DNA from: a virus
Virus record (IMG/VR): IMGVR_UViG_3300047354_000638
Coordinates: 1 to 20,863 of that record
DNA length: 20,863 nucleotides
Strand: one strand, 5' to 3'
Shown here: piece by piece, positions 4,599 to 10,890 of the stretch
Position numbering within the stretch: the stretch's first letter is position 1
Layout of the letters: each line of letters starts with the position of its first letter
Position numbers and translations under genes: made by a program
Notes under the pieces: generated by a model
What the model saw: only the letters and a program-made list of their open reading frames with translations
Databases searched by the model: none
What the model was told of the DNA's origin: nothing

Positions 4599-4607
4599 GT
4601 CTGTCAA
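4599..4607 (-). promoter_or_regulatory. TTGACAGAC leader motif (one of seven)
   Basis: On the minus strand TTGACAGAC lies just upstream of AAAGGAG. The same or a one-base variant is found in the same place before other leftward genes: 2511-2519, 6468-6476, 8596-8604, 10191-10199, 10547-10555 and 10867-10875. It resembles a -35 box but lies within about 10-45 bases of the start codon, with no room for a -10 box. It is therefore more likely a leader, operator or enhancer element. Confidence 0.45.
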
Positions 4608-5659: not shown

Positions 5660-5867
5660 CTCTCCACCTCTTAAAACTAATCTCATGCTCAATGATTATG
5701 ATAGGCAAGAAACATCCTACTAATATAAAGATAGATGCAATTGCCCACATTAACCAATCGCTTGGAGTTGATAATGCTATGTTGGTTTCAACCAGATCCA
5801 GAATTAAAAATCCAAATAAGAAATAAATTGCAGACATAATAATTAAAAATAATTTTGTCTTAGACAT
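5643..5867 (-). CDS. Small membrane protein with two transmembrane helices
   Basis: The start MSKTKLFLII at 5867 has TTGGAGG seven bases upstream; an ATG at 5885 has none. The 74-residue product has two clear hydrophobic helices, LFLIIMSAIYFLFGFLILDL and WLMWAIASIFILVGCF, separated by a short polar loop, and a charged C-terminus (HEISFKRWRDGNRK). With positive charge at both ends, both termini probably face the cytoplasm. A holin is possible by shape, but the position in the leftward block of small genes, far from the structural genes, argues for caution. It overlaps both neighbours. Confidence 0.65.
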   Translation of the reverse strand: MSKTKLFLIIMSAIYFLFGFLILDLVETNIALSTPSDWLMWAIASIFILVGCFLPIIIIEHEISFKRWRDGNRK

Positions 5868-6438
5868 TAGCACCTCCAAGTTCATTAGATTTAATTGGAA
5901 TTGATATTATGTTTTCACTAATCACATTTTTAGCATTAGCAAATTTGTCAGTAACATCTTGTCCTAGTTTGTCTTTTGCCATCCACCTAGGATATTCAAA
6001 ACATATATCTTCACGACCTTTGAGCTTATATATTTTATTATTGATGATCATAGATTTAGGTACCCATACATCAATTTCATTAGCAAACTTAATAAAGATA
6101 GCTTTCTCAGTTTCCTTTATAAATTTACCATAAATAAAAATGTCATCTGCTTTATCTTTTTGTAGTAGATTTTTCCTATCTAGATAATCTAGTTCTGCAA
6201 AAATTAATGCCCTAAGATGTTTAAGATTTTTCTTTTCTATCCAAAGCGGTGTATGACTTTTTAGTTCAAACAGTTTGTTATGGTCATCCCATTCAACATG
6301 AAAACATTTAATCACGTCATCTTTATAAGCAGTCTTACCTCTCCAAACTGCAAAGACAAAGTTGCCTTTGTTTATTCTTTGTAATCTGCCTGTAGTGACC
6401 TCATACAAATTGAGTTCATTTTTATTAGTATCATCCAT
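5860..6438 (-). CDS. Hypothetical protein, first gene after ribozyme 6497-6549
   Basis: I choose the ATG at 6438 (MDDTNKNELN), with AAGGGG six bases upstream; an ATG at 6501 falls inside the ribozyme and is not credible. The 192-residue product starts with a beta-rich part (LYEVTTGRLQRINKGNFVFAVW, then IKCFHVEWDDHNKLFELKSHTPLW), followed by a helix (KKNLKHLRALIFAELDYLD) and a second beta-rich part (DDIFIYGKFIKETEKAIFI, then IDVWVPKSMI). The two halves look alike and may be a duplicated small domain. No catalytic motif is seen. It begins a new mRNA if the ribozyme just upstream is active. Confidence 0.62.
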   Translation of the reverse strand: MDDTNKNELNLYEVTTGRLQRINKGNFVFAVWRGKTAYKDDVIKCFHVEWDDHNKLFELKSHTPLWIEKKNLKHLRALIFAELDYLDRKNLLQKDKADDIFIYGKFIKETEKAIFIKFANEIDVWVPKSMIINNKIYKLKGREDICFEYPRWMAKDKLGQDVTDKFANAKNVISENIISIPIKSNELGGANV

Positions 6439-6496
6439 GATGATCCCCTTTCTTGTTTGTGTGTTTAGTCTGTCAACTAAGTGATATTGATTAGCT

Positions 6497-6549
6497 ACCA
6501 CGACATATAAAAATATGTTTCGACCATGCTAAAGGTCTTATCAAGTGGC
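6497..6549 (-). ncRNA. Hammerhead ribozyme, type I layout, with U3-A8 core variant
   Basis: Read on the minus strand from 6549: stem I GCCAC; core UUGAUAA; stem II GACC and GGUC around an 8-base loop; GAA; stem III ACAUA with UAUGU; cleavage residue C at 6502; stem I GUGGU. All other core positions match the hammerhead consensus (GA at 5-6, GAA at 12-14, A15.1-U16.1, C17). C3 and G8, which form a Watson-Crick pair in active hammerheads, are both changed, to U and A, which would keep the pair. Compared with the copy at 8614, stem I (C-G for U-A) and stem II (C-G for U-A) also change in matched fashion. Predicted cut lies between 6502 and 6501. Confidence 0.75.
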
Positions 6550-6554
6550 TTACA

Positions 6555-6576
6555 GGGGCAATCCTAAGACTGCCCC
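6555..6576 (-). other. GGGGCA/TGCCCC hairpin at the 3' end of the VWA gene
   Basis: On the minus strand GGGGCAGUC pairs with GAUUGCCCC over a UUAG loop (nine pairs, one G-U). It lies nine bases after the stop codon at 6585 and six before the ribozyme. There is no T-run, so it is not a standard terminator. Hairpins of the same design, with the same G-U position, precede two of the other three ribozymes and a related one precedes the third. Confidence 0.7.
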
Positions 6577-6584
6577 CTAAGTAT

Positions 6585-8558
6585 TTATTTTAGAATTTTG
6601 TTAAGTTCTTTAAGACCATTAGTGATCATTTGTGTAGCGGATCCCTCAACTATGTGATGATCAAAGCAACCATCAAACTGAGAAATAAAATAATCTAATT
6701 TATTTTTCTCTGATGAATATTTATCAGCATATAATTTAGCACCACATAAAACCATGCCAATCACTTCGATGCCCCAACTTGCGAGAATTTCTTTAGCTTG
6801 TCTGCATTTCTCTATTTTGTTCGGTAGTCCATCAGTAAGGATAATCATAACTTTACGATCTTCAGATCTTTTTCTTAGCCTTTCGCCCTCAGCCATCATG
6901 GCAGTATCTGTAGGAGTATTGCCACCACAATCCCCATATTGAAAAGCTACATTCTTTTTAGACCTCATCCAATTTTGCTCATGGTCTTTAAGTAAATAAA
7001 GATCTTTATCCCAATACATATCATTATTTCTAAATCCTCTGAAATTTACATAGTTTGCACACGGGAAACAACTAACAGAGTATTTGACTTGAACTTTATG
7101 TAAAGCATCCCCAAGAATTAAAGCTAAATTTACACTCTCTTGAGCATTGTTTAACTTATGATATCCATAGTTATGAGTTTTCATAGATGATGAAGTATCA
7201 ATCAACATTGAAACAACGGTTTTAGTTCCCGCCTGTTTCCAAGGCTGATGAAATAAATTAGGTGTATTAGTGCATAATTTACCTAATTTTCTAGCATCTA
7301 ATTTTCCTCTATCTCTATTTCTTTTAGTCCCATAACGGTCGGGATTTCTAAGAATTCTAGCTAGAGTTTGAGAACAATCTGAAACATTCAACTTAGCTAA
7401 TTGCCTTTGAACTTTTTTAGCTTTTGTTTCCAATTTCTTATTAAGAGTTTGATCATCACTATTCATCATTTGTGATACATTATAATTCTTAGCTTTGAGT
7501 TGATCACGATTATATTTATCAAGACCATCAGCAGAATTATTATTATTGTCTGTAATCATATCTTCTTTAGATTTAAAGTTTTGATCACTAAGATCTATAG
7601 ATACAGAGCCTTGTCCATTGTCTGATCCATCCCTGTCTATTTGGACAGTATTTTTTGATGTCTCAGAACTATCAGAACTGTCTGAACTATCAGAACTGTC
7701 TGAGCTATCAGAACTGTCTGAGCTATCAGAACTGTCTGAACTATCAGAATTGTCTGAACTATCAGAACTGTCTGAGCTATCAGAATTGTCTGAGCTATCA
7801 GAATTGTCTGAGCTATCAGATTGATCTTCTTGGGATCCTTCAGCTATTCCCTTGCCTTGTTGAGGTTGTTGCTGATTTGAGTATTTACCCATTAGCTCAA
7901 TACATAGATCTAAAACATCTTGAGTATTCTTACATGCTTTTAGCTTTGTTAAAGCCTGTTCTAGATCATGTCTAATTTTTCCACTAGCTACTAACAAATC
8001 TTCAGCAGACCCTACTGATGGCACGTTATAACCGCACCAATCAATATATGCTAAGGTGTTTAGAGTAAATAAGAACTGTTTTGGATCTTTAGGATTAAAA
8101 CCATTCTTGATGTTTTGATCAGATGCCCAAGATGTAAGTTTTTCAAGAACATTTTTTGCTCCCTCAAAATGACATTTGGATAACAGTTCTTTCTCCTGTC
8201 TAGGATCTTCAAGTGCATTAAGTGTCTGTAATATACCTTGTTGTCCCTCTTGCTCCATTCTTACAGCTTTTTGCCATACATCTTTTTGTGTACAGATATT
8301 ATGACCAATTTCATGTAATGCGAAACCTGTATAAACCGTAGCCATAAAGTTAGTAATTTTTGCATTGGCTTTTATTGGCGGAAAATTAATTATTGAGCTT
8401 AACTCATTATTCTCATTGTATTCCCATGATGTAGATGCAGTTTCTCCATTCCATTGTATTTTTAACTCTTTAAGTTTTAAATTAGGAATATATCTCAGAG
8501 CTGAATTAGTATTACGTTCAACGGCTGAAACCAACTCCTGTGCAATAATATTGTGCAT
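6585..8558 (-). CDS. Metallopeptidase-like and VWA domain protein (CobT-like) with Ser-Asp repeat
   Basis: The ATG at 8558 (MHNIIAQELV) follows AAAGGGAG at suitable spacing. The product is 657 residues. Residues 82-86 are HEIGH, a zinc-peptidase HExxH motif, followed at ~115-123 by ALEDPRQEK, similar to the ED-R-E segment of phage CobT/VWA proteins and a possible third zinc ligand. Residues ~246-298 are a serine-aspartate repeat. The C-terminal VWA domain has a complete MIDAS set: DTSSS at 454-458, a threonine in GGNTPTD, and ILTDG. Its partner AAA+ ATPase is encoded immediately upstream. MoxR/VWA pairs act as metal-dependent chaperones or remodelling machines. The CobT label comes from resemblance to cobaltochelatase, but no CobN or cobalamin gene is seen. 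A ribozyme and hairpin lie on each side. Confidence 0.82.
   Translation of the reverse strand: MHNIIAQELVSAVERNTNSALRYIPNLKLKELKIQWNGETASTSWEYNENNELSSIINFPPIKANAKITNFMATVYTGFALHEIGHNICTQKDVWQKAVRMEQEGQQGILQTLNALEDPRQEKELLSKCHFEGAKNVLEKLTSWASDQNIKNGFNPKDPKQFLFTLNTLAYIDWCGYNVPSVGSAEDLLVASGKIRHDLEQALTKLKACKNTQDVLDLCIELMGKYSNQQQPQQGKGIAEGSQEDQSDSSDNSDSSDNSDSSDSSDSSDNSDSSDSSDSSDSSDSSDSSDSSDSSDSSETSKNTVQIDRDGSDNGQGSVSIDLSDQNFKSKEDMITDNNNNSADGLDKYNRDQLKAKNYNVSQMMNSDDQTLNKKLETKAKKVQRQLAKLNVSDCSQTLARILRNPDRYGTKRNRDRGKLDARKLGKLCTNTPNLFHQPWKQAGTKTVVSMLIDTSSSMKTHNYGYHKLNNAQESVNLALILGDALHKVQVKYSVSCFPCANYVNFRGFRNNDMYWDKDLYLLKDHEQNWMRSKKNVAFQYGDCGGNTPTDTAMMAEGERLRKRSEDRKVMIILTDGLPNKIEKCRQAKEILASWGIEVIGMVLCGAKLYADKYSSEKNKLDYFISQFDGCFDHHIVEGSATQMITNGLKELNKILK
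7662..7821 (-). repeat. In-frame 9/18-base tandem repeat encoding Ser-Asp linker
   Basis: About eighteen 9-base units, alternating in an 18-base pattern such as TCAGAACTGTCTGAACTA (plus strand), encode SDS/SDN triplets within the VWA protein. The units are nearly identical at DNA level, so copy number can change by slippage without shifting the frame. The peptide would be an extended, highly acidic linker between the peptidase-like and VWA parts. Confidence 0.9.
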
Positions 8559-8613
8559 ATAATGCTCCCTTTGGTTGTGTGTTTTATGATAGTCAGTCTG
8601 TCATTTTGGCAAG

Positions 8614-8669
8614 CTACCATGACATATAAATATGTTTCGATCTTGCTAAAGGATCTCATCAGATGGCAG
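8614..8669 (-). ncRNA. Hammerhead ribozyme, type I, full consensus core
   Basis: Read on the minus strand from 8669: stem I CUGCCAU; core CUGAUGA; stem II GAUC and GAUC around a 9-base loop; GAA; stem III ACAUA with UAUGU; cleavage site GUC with C17 at 8621; stem I AUGGUAG, pairing all seven bases of the first strand (one G-U). Every conserved residue of the hammerhead consensus is present. Stems II and III are closed by loops and stem I is open, which defines type I. The predicted cut, between 8621 and 8620, would leave the ribozyme on the 3' end of the upstream ATPase mRNA and give the VWA mRNA a 5'-hydroxyl leader of about 62 bases. Confidence 0.92.
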
Positions 8670-8704
8670 TTGATTGCCCCAATAAAAAATATTGGAGCAA
8701 TCAA
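8670..8704 (-). other. 15-bp hairpin at the 3' end of the AAA+ gene
   Basis: TTGATTGCTCCAATA pairs with TATTGGGGCAATCAA over a five-base loop, with one G-U pair. It starts four bases after the stop codon at 8709 and abuts the first base of the ribozyme. There is no following T-run. It is a longer relative of the GGGGCA/TGCCCC hairpins and would cap the 3' end of the processed mRNA. Confidence 0.75.
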
Positions 8705-8708
8705 AGTT

Positions 8709-10178
8709 TTAATAAGGCATTTCTTGATCATCATCAGCATCTTTATCGTTGTCTTTATTGGTGTCTAAAGTTGCTGAATTTTCGACAGGCTCCTCAGTAG
8801 GTAATTCCCCATCTTCAACTAAGATTTTAAAAATCTTAGGATCTATATGAGTATTAAATAACTGAGATAAGAATTCTCTGTCTGCGGGATCTAGAGAATT
8901 TCCCATACAAGCCATTAAAGAAATTTTAGGATCTATTCCATCAACTAATCTATTAATCCATGAAACAGTATTTCTAAAACTAGGGGCAAGAGTTGGGGCA
9001 TCTCCTCGATCATTTGCATCCCTACATAGGTTTACAAACTCAACAATTTTATCGCAAAGTCTTGCACCTGTCCCCGTCTTGTTTTGAAGAATTTTACTTT
9101 CAATAGATGGTTTAGGATATGAAACCTCGAGAGTTACTGCAAATCTATTAAGCAATGAACTATCCATTTGTTTAGCTCCCGCAAATTGACCTGTCAGATC
9201 CCCTTGACCGTTTGTATTGTCACAGGCAACAATTACAACACCTTTAGCAAAAGGTATTCTTTGTCCTGTCTCGGGAATTGTATACTCACGGTCTTGCAGA
9301 CAACCATTTAAAGCAGACAAGATATCTGCTCTAATTCTAGTAATCTCATCGATTAGTAAAACTGTATAAGGTTGCTGAATTGCTTTTAGCAGTAATCCAT
9401 CTTGCCAATAGGTTGAACCATTTTTAGCACCAAATGATCCAAAGAATTGATCAACAGTTAGATCATCATTCCCTGTAATAGCTATGAACTGCCTACCTGT
9501 TTTAGCTGAAAACCACCTAGGCAAAGATGTTTTACCTGTTCCCGCCTTTCCATAAAGGAATATATTTTCGGGATCTCTGTCATTTTTAGGACAGGCACAG
9601 GATAAAAACATTTCCAAAACCTCTTTCTGTGGCTGATAATTTTCATCAACTACAGGGCATCTAGGATCGTTGTAGATATCAAAAGATCTGTCCGCAAAAG
9701 ATCTAAAACCAAATAGTTTAGATCCTGTCTCAGATCTAACTTTATTTATTGGCAAAATCTCAGTCTGAGGAAAGCCTGTGTCTGTAACTGATCCATCAGA
9801 TACTTTAACAATCTTTTCAGTTACAGGAGGATTATTTTTAAAAACCAAGAGGTCATTAATCTCATTCCTCAAATCCATTAAAGGCATTCCCATAATATTA
9901 TTTAACTGCTTATCAATGTCTGCAACCTCAGTTTGAATTTTAGCTACAGGCTCAGATTGAACCTTTGGAACAGTAGATTTTCTGATCTGCGGTGCGGTGT
10001 TTGAGATAACAGTTCCAATTGCATTTAAATCAATTCCAAGATCCTCAGCTAATGTTATCCATTCATTTTTAGTCAGATTATGCACACCTTTAACAGGCTT
10101 TAAGTGAGGTTGATTTATTAACTCAGCCCTAATTGAACTAAGTACTTTTTGTCTCTGCTCATTTGTAAATTTAAGCAT
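8709..10178 (-). CDS. cobS: CobS/MoxR-type AAA+ ATPase
   Basis: I choose the ATG at 10178 (MLKFTNEQRQ), with GGAG six bases upstream; an ATG at 10190 lies on that Shine-Dalgarno itself. The 489-residue product has a ~150-residue N-terminal region of unknown role with a helical start, then an AAA+ core: Walker A GKAGTGKT at 210-217, Walker B LLIDEI at 274-279, sensor 1 in VIVACDNT near 321, and an arginine-finger candidate in SSLLNRF at ~345. This matches phage proteins annotated CobS, the ATPase subunit of aerobic cobaltochelatase, and the wider MoxR group. The C-terminus is acidic (DNDKDADDDQEM). It is encoded just upstream of its likely VWA partner, with a ribozyme between them. Cobalt insertion is not supported by any other gene in the window. 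Confidence 0.85.
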   Translation of the reverse strand: MLKFTNEQRQKVLSSIRAELINQPHLKPVKGVHNLTKNEWITLAEDLGIDLNAIGTVISNTAPQIRKSTVPKVQSEPVAKIQTEVADIDKQLNNIMGMPLMDLRNEINDLLVFKNNPPVTEKIVKVSDGSVTDTGFPQTEILPINKVRSETGSKLFGFRSFADRSFDIYNDPRCPVVDENYQPQKEVLEMFLSCACPKNDRDPENIFLYGKAGTGKTSLPRWFSAKTGRQFIAITGNDDLTVDQFFGSFGAKNGSTYWQDGLLLKAIQQPYTVLLIDEITRIRADILSALNGCLQDREYTIPETGQRIPFAKGVVIVACDNTNGQGDLTGQFAGAKQMDSSLLNRFAVTLEVSYPKPSIESKILQNKTGTGARLCDKIVEFVNLCRDANDRGDAPTLAPSFRNTVSWINRLVDGIDPKISLMACMGNSLDPADREFLSQLFNTHIDPKIFKILVEDGELPTEEPVENSATLDTNKDNDKDADDDQEMPY

Positions 10179-10200
10179 ATTTTGCTCCATGTCTGTCAGT

Positions 10201-10255
10201 TACTAATTTCACTCTTTTGAGATCATCAGATCGAATACACATTCGATTATCAGTA
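10201..10255 (-). ncRNA. Hammerhead ribozyme, type III layout
   Basis: Read on the minus strand from 10255: stem III UACUGAU; cleavage residue A17 at 10248; stem I AUCGAAU and AUUCGAU around a GUGU loop; core CUGAUGA; stem II CUC and GAG around AAAA, flanked by a U-U mismatch where a G-C pair is usual; GAA; stem III AUUAGUA. Stem III pairs over all seven positions (one G-U). Stems I and II are closed and stem III open, which defines type III. The predicted cut (10248/10247) would leave the ribozyme on the leader of the CobS mRNA. Doubt: the short stem II and its U-U pair could lower activity. Confidence 0.82.
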
Positions 10256-10264
10256 TAAAATAAA

Positions 10265-10292
10265 ATGGGGCAATAAAAAAATACTGCCCCAT
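10265..10292 (-). other. GGGGCA/TGCCCC hairpin at the 3' end of gene 10301-10534
   Basis: AUGGGGCAGUA pairs with UAUUGCCCCAU over a six-U loop (eleven pairs, one G-U), eight bases after the stop codon. It is followed by TTTATTTTAT, so this copy could also act as a partial intrinsic terminator. The ribozyme starts nine bases further on. Confidence 0.7.
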
Positions 10293-10300
10293 GTCTATGT

Positions 10301-10534
10301 CTATCCATATTTAAAAAACTTATTACCGCTCTTCAGTGTTATAGAACCTGTATTTAGTCTAAACCTACGGTAGTTGTTAATTTTAAAATCATAGACTGTA
10401 ATGAGATCCTCATTATCTCTTGTCTCATTCTTTAGAATTCCCCAAAACTTTCGTTGTGTCTGATCCTTTTTTGTAAAAGAACCTGTTACAATTCTAGATT
10501 GAAACATGTTGTATATTTCTTGTTTTTTAAGCAT
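10301..10534 (-). CDS. Small basic beta-rich phage protein (possibly SH3-like, DUF2693-type)
   Basis: The ATG at 10534 (MLKKQEIYNM) has GGAG six bases upstream, as in the neighbouring CobS gene; the ATG at 10546 overlaps the Shine-Dalgarno. The 77-residue product is basic and contains IVTGSFTKKDQTQRKFWGIL, then LITVYDFKINNYRRFRLNTGSITLKSGNKFF. This strand pattern, with a charged FxKKD turn and a closing yR-fRLNtgSI segment, recalls small phage SH3-like proteins of the DUF2693 kind, often encoded in early regions. It is the first gene of the ribozyme-separated block. Family assignment is tentative. Confidence 0.6.
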   Translation of the reverse strand: MLKKQEIYNMFQSRIVTGSFTKKDQTQRKFWGILKNETRDNEDLITVYDFKINNYRRFRLNTGSITLKSGNKFFKYG

Positions 10535-10556
10535 GTATTTCTCCATGTCTGTCAGT

Positions 10557-10610
10557 TAACTGTTTCACTCTTTTGAGATCATCAGATGCAACATACATTG
10601 CATTACAGTA
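10557..10610 (-). ncRNA. Hammerhead ribozyme, type III layout
   Basis: Read on the minus strand from 10610: stem III ACUGU (after a U); cleavage residue A17 at 10604; stem I AUGCAA and UUGCAU around a six-base loop; core CUGAUGA; stem II CUC and GAG around AAAA with the same U-U mismatch as the copy at 10201; GAA; stem III ACAGU. The core and stem II match the 10201 copy base for base, while stems I and III have different sequences that still pair (for example CGAAU/AUUCG against GCAA/UUGC). Predicted cut lies between 10604 and 10603, leaving the ribozyme on the leader of gene 10301-10534. Confidence 0.82.
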
Positions 10611-10615
10611 TTTTT

Positions 10616-10639
10616 AAGGGGCAATCGAAACTGCCCCCT
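10616..10639 (-). other. GGGGCA/TGCCCC hairpin with UUCG loop
   Basis: AGGGGGCAGU pairs with AUUGCCCCUU over a UUCG loop (ten pairs including two G-U). It stands just upstream of the ribozyme at 10557, in the same position as the hairpins that follow genes in the other three units, but no clear gene precedes it here. It implies a transcript coming from the right, through 10640-10866. Confidence 0.7.
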
Positions 10640-10640
10640 A

Positions 10641-10866
10641 ATTAATTTGTTTGGAGTTGAATAGAAACAATCCTGTGCCTTGAGAGTGGATCATGTTTTG
10701 CACCAAATCAGCATTACAGGCTTTCTAATCTTGTTGGCTAGCTATTTACCCATGCTAGTAGTCAGATTTTTTGGATCGTACATAAACCTTACTTGGCGGT
10801 TATCTGAGCAGTTACCTCAATCTGCGGGGCGGGCGGTCAGTCCTTAAAAACCTTTTTGTCTCCTCT
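10641..10866 (-). other. Transcribed leader-like region without a clear gene
   Basis: The minus strand begins with the same TTGACAGAC motif and a strong GAGGAG ribosome binding site (near 10855-10866) seen before genes, but no start codon follows at normal spacing. A GC-rich stretch follows (near 10800-10845), unlike its AT-rich surroundings. Only very short ORFs are present, for example MYDPKNLTTSMGK, and MIHSQGTG... (18 residues, 10638-10694) whose stop codon overlaps the hairpin. CTAGC...GCTAG at about 10740-10760 can pair. It may be a small RNA, a decayed gene, or a leader encoding tiny peptides. Confidence 0.35.
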
Positions 10867-10890
10867 GTCTGTCAATCTCCCTTGGAGATT
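10867..10890 (-). promoter_or_regulatory. TTGACAGAC motif with AATCTCC/GGAGATT hairpin
   Basis: AATCTCC (10874-10880) and GGAGATT (10884-10890) form a perfect seven-base inverted repeat with a three-base loop, overlapping a TTGACAGAC motif at 10867-10875. A second TTGACAG lies near 10908-10916 and could be a -35 box, with a poor -10 match. This is the likely start region of the leftward block. Confidence 0.4.

Follow-up and report, generated by a model that had tools for sequence, protein, structure and literature searches.

Why should a single phage operon carry a self-cleaving ribozyme motif ahead of gene after gene? The question is raised by IMG/VR record IMGVR_UViG_3300047354_000638, which is analyzed here as one whole record of 20,863 bases (the window) and is a fragment of a tailed marine phage. 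Its plus strand carries the terminase, portal and capsid genes, and its minus strand a divergent operon with four hammerhead ribozymes in its leaders (HH1 to HH4). On the reading we favor, and consider fairly likely given the sequence, the hammerheads would cut the operon transcript as it is made, yielding near-monocistronic mRNAs with hairpin-guarded 3′ ends and 5′-hydroxyl (5′-OH) ends.

Four hammerheads on the minus strand

HH1 (10557-10611; predicted cut 10604/10603, GUA) lies in the 5′ leader of the operon and HH2 (10201-10255; predicted cut 10248/10247, AUA) before a cobS-like gene; both are type III. The two type I copies are HH3 (8613-8670; predicted cut 8621/8620, GUC), between the cobS-like gene and a cobT-like gene, and HH4 (6497-6549; predicted cut 6502/6501, GUC), after the cobT-like gene. 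An earlier note, made from the letters of this DNA alone, had placed four minus-strand hammerheads here and named a cleavage residue in each. All four are confirmed in those places, each with three stems, and counting along the sequence puts H17 at exactly the residues named (10604, 10248, 8621 and 6502). The note's claim that every copy has the hammerhead core stands in that all four are hammerheads, but the cores are not identical. The conserved core (CUGANGA ... GAAA, a paired A15.1-U16.1 and NUH before the cut) is canonical in three copies, while HH4 is a compensated variant, UUGAUAA, in which C3U and G8A together keep the C3-G8 pair as U-A. The closing pair of stem II, G10.1-C11.1, is present in HH3 and HH4 and is U.U in HH1 and HH2.

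In HH1, stem I is AUGCAA/UUGCAU and stem II CUC/GAG. HH1 and HH2 share an open stem III, the core CUGAUGA...GAAA, a stem II loop of AAAA and a stem I loop of UGUAUG or UGUGUA, and across type III copies UGUG in loop I and RAAA in loop II are conserved and may bear on a contact or pseudoknot between the two loops. A possible pairing of loop II with the 3′ flank (UUAGC/GCUAA) is found in HH4 and HH4-like copies and not in HH3. The stems vary in a compensated manner, as the note had also proposed: relative to HH1, stems I and III of HH2 are altered on both sides, and in the type I set compensation is seen at the C3-G8/U3-A8 pair, at the closing pair of stem I and at one pair of stem II. Among ten type I sequences of the window's clade, the core pair is U-A in four and C-G in six. 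In a type III alignment, whose rows were partly picked by a finder requiring stems, two-sided changes occur at 15 of 17 pairs, and 89% of cells are paired, compared with 59% in shuffles and 33-43% when the alignment is slid; a broader alignment agrees.

Chance is a poor explanation for these motifs. A structural finder that needs both core and stems returned from the window the four copies and one weak non-canonical match (CAGAUGA), while in 200 dinucleotide shuffles of the window it gave none in 182 and one in 18. The 23-base core of HH1 and HH2 was found in 27 IMG/VR stretches; in every distinct copy stem III is paired and stem I is paired along its whole length, the stem I sequences being many and varied. 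A pattern of fixed loops and core with no pairing requirement matched at least 120 IMG/VR stretches. Among the matches listed from 76 further contigs, all 93 form the three stems, none lies inside a long open reading frame (ORF), the next start codon is a median of 26 nt downstream, and position 10.1-11.1 is U.U in 48, G-C in 37, A.A in four, C.U in three and C.A in one. Model R3 scores HH1 at 62.4 and HH2 at 66.4 bits, but models R1 and R3 include the window copies, and their scores on those copies are not independent evidence, as the unpaired-pattern tests are. In the type I model, R2, stem I is one column out of register, and R2 matches rest on sequence and stems II and III.

Curated models did not recover the array. 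No copy reaches an Rfam gathering score, in the whole window or in small pieces, and the four are thus not Rfam members by curated score. The sole clear sub-threshold match is HH3 to RF02275 (30.8 bits against a cut-off of 52, E 3e-4), and other weak Rfam matches, including DapZ and a snoRNA, were set aside as due to chance or caused by the hairpins. In eight loci with type III relatives, RF00008 scored 18 copies at 30.7-50.5 bits, only one of which passes the cut-off of 48.5. That nearly all scanned members fall below Rfam cut-offs is a fair reason why such arrays lack annotation, and the missing match does not refute hammerhead identity. Searched by BLAST against phage records, neither the operon nor the single hammerheads gave anything useful. 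Covariation, the outcome of the unbiased pattern search across further contigs and the retention of the array by related contigs strongly support the prediction that the four elements are hammerheads.

A cassette of hairpin and hammerhead

Each hammerhead follows a hairpin on the same strand. GC hairpins lie just upstream of HH1 (10614-10641, 12 pairs, no U-tract), upstream of HH2 (10265-10292, 11 pairs, followed by a U-rich tail that the other three lack) and upstream of HH4 (6554-6577, 10 pairs, no U-tract; the identical upstream stretch was scored in a relative), and a hairpin of 15 pairs adjoins HH3 (8670-8704). The arrangement is general. Across 59 distinct viral hammerheads the order is, with a few exceptions, stop codon, hairpin, hammerhead, Shine-Dalgarno sequence and start codon, with 19-28 nt from hammerhead to Shine-Dalgarno for type III and 39-61 nt for type I. 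A strong upstream hairpin was found in 48 of 53 viral leaders, mostly with 0-10 nt between it and the ribozyme; just three of the 53 have a U-tract behind the hairpin (0-3 in the pattern sets). In those sets an upstream hairpin accompanies 64-83% of the viral copies, compared with 5-6% in shuffles, and 60% of the bacterial ones; over both groups the shuffles give 5-9%. Two to five hammerhead copies, always on one strand, occur in 19 of 31 long viral records.

The array is kept at the same junctions in contigs with 72-92% CobS identity, and the type order III, III, I, I is retained in several related contigs. Among cultured phages, the nearest relative found is Roseobacter phage CRP-810, which is syntenic (45% identity in the capsid and 33.5% in the portal protein); its cobS and cobT are 12 nt apart, and three methods, relaxed settings included, found no hammerhead in it. 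The cobS-cobT gap is 5 nt in Microcystis phage Mae-Yong1326-1, compared with 150 nt in the window, where it contains the hairpin and HH3. A related contig (L009) has no cassette before cobS and a 15-nt gap there. The cassette is therefore gained and lost as a whole. The genes that follow hammerheads in other marine phages vary, those recurring being the metallopeptidase/VWA-like DUF2201, the ATPase phrog_1297 and DUF3150, and the predicted cassette of hairpin and hammerhead recurs in many of these phages.

The minus-strand operon begins with a small gene (10301-10534) that has a weak WYL_2 (PF10902) match and whose start is placed after GGAG, with an alternative ORF start at 10546. It is followed by a CobS-like AAA ATPase (8709-10178; phrog_249, AAA_5; alternative ORF start 10190), a CobT-like protein with a VWA domain (6585-8558; PF11775, phrog_17276) and, behind HH4, a gene of unknown function (5860-6438; phrog_8389). 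The middle of the CobT-like protein, encoded at 7660-7830, has a long Asp-Ser-Ser repeat (SDSSDNSDSSD...). The motif TGACAGAC occurs six times in the window, always on the minus strand, where 0.56 occurrences are expected. Four of these lie between ribozyme and ribosome-binding site in the hammerhead leaders (10547-10554, 10191-10198, 8596-8603 and 6468-6475), and two at sites without a hammerhead (4599-4606 and 10867-10874). Promoter-like sites before the downstream genes are no more frequent than in shuffles, and these genes have no obvious promoters of their own.

Proposed cutting of the transcript and its alternatives

The earlier note had suggested a built-in system for cutting mRNA, with the array separating the genes of the operon. 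The separation holds for three copies, which lie between genes, whereas HH1 is in the 5′ leader and would trim that leader instead. The proposed role fits the layout, with hammerheads always intergenic and on one strand, a hairpin upstream and a Shine-Dalgarno sequence 20-60 nt downstream, from which we infer cleavage and its effects on the mRNA. In this scheme four successive minus-strand genes would each be served by a cassette of GC hairpin, hammerhead and ribosome-binding site, and each hammerhead would cut its own strand during transcription. The upstream message would then end in a 2′,3′-cyclic phosphate a short way past the hairpin; for HH3 and HH4 the folded type I ribozyme would sit between hairpin and new 3′ end. 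A hairpin near the 3′ end should slow 3′ exonucleases. The downstream message would begin with a 5′-OH and, where the hammerhead is type III, with the hairpin of stem I directly at that end, which together should slow 5′-end-dependent decay. Such hairpin and 5′-OH ends stabilize bacterial mRNA. Every gene would receive the same short leader, and the levels of near-single-gene mRNAs could be set separately, for instance for the cobS-like ATPase and its cobT-like partner. Unmasking of the ribosome-binding site by cleavage is not supported, as predicted Shine-Dalgarno accessibility is 0.44 before and 0.46 after the cut and a cut 30 nt upstream does as well.

Precedents exist for parts of this scheme. 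RNase III sites between the early genes of phage T7 cut its polycistronic mRNA into units with hairpin ends; those sites need a host enzyme, whereas here the RNA would cut itself. The hammerhead of the satellite RNA of tobacco ringspot virus (sTRSV) is type III, with a 6-bp stem I, a UGUG-type loop I and a short stem II with a tetraloop. Like it and the synthetic insulator RiboJ, which joins this ribozyme to a hairpin and raises transcript level about twofold (PMC6206723), the type III copies have this layout, and they sit just upstream of a ribosome-binding site, but with a shorter loop I and often U.U at 10.1-11.1. The added hairpin of RiboJ is downstream of the ribozyme, whereas in the natural cassettes here it is upstream. 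The theta ribozymes of gut phages, which are hepatitis delta virus (HDV)-like, are likewise self-cleaving, encoded in phage genomes and proposed to process RNA, but belong to another class and lie beside tRNA genes rather than between protein genes (PMC10879173).

The closest systems are the clustered hammerheads in prophages of A. tumefaciens, C. scindens and A. caulinodans, for which cutting of long phage transcripts was proposed (Perreault et al. 2011, PMC3088659). The tandem arrays cleave in vitro, and the A. tumefaciens triple array cleaves in E. coli (PMC3088659). In the same study the U3-A8 core (C3U/G8A) and U10.1-U11.1 are natural and compatible with cleavage, the latter being the best-tolerated mismatch. 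As in those clusters, several hammerheads lie close together in a phage region, bordering single genes or short blocks of genes. Unlike those clusters, the window has four copies of mixed types III and I, each ahead of one of four genes in a row in a marine phage operon, the array is conserved across related contigs, each copy adjoins a GC hairpin, and the type III form is compact, with UGUG in loop I and RAAA in loop II. The kind has thus been known since 2011, and the novelty of the array itself is moderate.

Several observations weigh against transcript cutting by these elements. None of the four copies passes an Rfam cut-off, and HH1, HH2 and HH4 gave nothing useful there; under energy folding HH1 and HH4 fold to the hammerhead alone, while HH2 and HH3 do not, and flanking sequence lowers the native pair probabilities in the leaders; the U.U at 10.1-11.1 in HH1 and HH2 is suboptimal. 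As energy folding does not always choose the hammerhead, activity must be measured. The hairpin before HH2, with its U-rich tail, scores as a terminator and could act as one. This would suit leaders that are chiefly terminators or attenuators, with hairpins that stop or pause RNA polymerase and hammerheads that are secondary or decayed. We consider that quite improbable given the rarity of U-tracts (3 of 53 viral leaders), the downstream genes without obvious promoters of their own, and near-invariant cores with covarying stems, which decay would not keep. The hammerheads could instead be regulated switches, in which a ligand, a protein or competing folds control cutting and hence translation. 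HH3 can form a competing pairing, flanks lower native pairing, and TGACAGAC is common to all four leaders between ribozyme and Shine-Dalgarno sequence; yet no conserved aptamer-like insert is present and the cut leaves predicted Shine-Dalgarno accessibility nearly unchanged, making a switch unlikely.

The presence of the same cassette ahead of unrelated genes, and its gain or loss at single junctions, would be expected of passengers, selfish or neutral, that move from leader to leader and do the phage no service. Against this stand the order III, III, I, I in several related contigs, the lack of any attached mobility gene and the placement always in same-strand leaders beside a hairpin, and we regard passengers as having little likelihood. 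A further alternative is that the segment excised by a pair of hammerheads is ligated to give circular or trans-spliced RNA, as for retrozymes and viroid-like RNAs. RNAs with 2′,3′-cyclic phosphate and 5′-OH ends are substrates of RtcB, as known for circular RNAs made by hammerheads. Here, the released pieces would be whole coding genes of 0.3-2 kb and no RNA ligase was recognized in the window; spliced or circular products of clustered hammerheads were sought earlier and none found (PMC3088659). Ligation is therefore very improbable.

Hammerheads on Patescibacteria chromosomes

The compact type III form is not confined to phages. A GTDB scan with the same pattern gave at least 93 matches in at least 80 loci; among the matches listed, 87 form complete hammerheads, and candidate-phyla-radiation lineages appear in about 56 of the 80 record titles. 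A tally of genomes used model R3 (E <= 1e-5), did not count the centre genome and took group names from record titles. A match was found in 16 of 191 genomes in the phylum of a Parcubacteria record and in 36 of 148 in the order of a Saccharibacteria record, compared with one of 199 in the phylum of a Polynucleobacter record and none of 197 in that of a Mucilaginibacter record. Neighbors of the bacterial copies include the genes for ribosomal proteins S2 and L19, TruB and SHMT; therefore, not all bacterial copies are phage. Contamination of metagenome-assembled genomes is possible for the Patescibacteria copies.

One Saccharibacteria genome (G039) has 26 R3 matches. There, 23 of 25 type III copies examined (L213-L231) sit 45-128 nt behind a same-strand ORF, in 3′ untranslated regions. 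For 18 of 25, the stem III strand is base-paired in the fold predicted for the upstream product, in most cases as part of a long hairpin that ends where the cut falls. The 5′ strand of stem III is common to the ribozyme and this long upstream hairpin (GAGCGAAT...ATTCGCTC). After cutting, the upstream RNA would have a hairpin as its 3′ end, and strand exchange could pull the cutting forward. The proteins encoded upstream of these hammerheads are nearly without Pfam match (1 of 23). In a Parcubacteria record (L232:2474-6529, G031 contig 31), ten one-strand hammerheads lie within 4 kb that is non-coding except for a helicase-like gene, alternating with a repeated structured RNA (GGTCGG..CCGAC ACTTAAGT..ATTTAAGGCAGTGCTTTCGAAAGAGAGTGCTGCAAAT) that has no Rfam match reaching the cut-off. 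A boxA-like GTTCTTTGA or GATCTTTGA lies 5-15 nt behind many Patescibacteria hammerheads (L045-L124), as if processing and antitermination were coupled.

The occurrence in Patescibacteria is unexpected, so that the surprise lies outside the window. No literature linking hammerhead ribozymes with Patescibacteria, the Candidate Phyla Radiation or Saccharibacteria was found in a search that left preprints and most subscription papers outside. We suggest, tentatively and at somewhat less than even likelihood, that hairpin and compact type III hammerhead form a widespread mRNA end-forming cassette of marine phages and Patescibacteria, and that in the Saccharibacteria chromosome described above (G039) the mRNA 3′ end made by the cut would be a blunt hairpin, with the ribozyme standing in for a terminator.

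A 2017 review treats the job of bacterial and phage hammerheads as an open question (PMC6155905). The present set offers a clear and testable layout of stop codon, hairpin, ribozyme and ribosome-binding site, with natural knock-outs in CRP-810 and L009 and dozens of independent contigs available. Its scale, the hairpin cassette and the occurrence in Patescibacteria make the question of ribozyme function directly testable. If true, the Patescibacteria finding would mean that a large group of bacteria has ordinary chromosomal mRNAs shaped by RNA that cuts itself.

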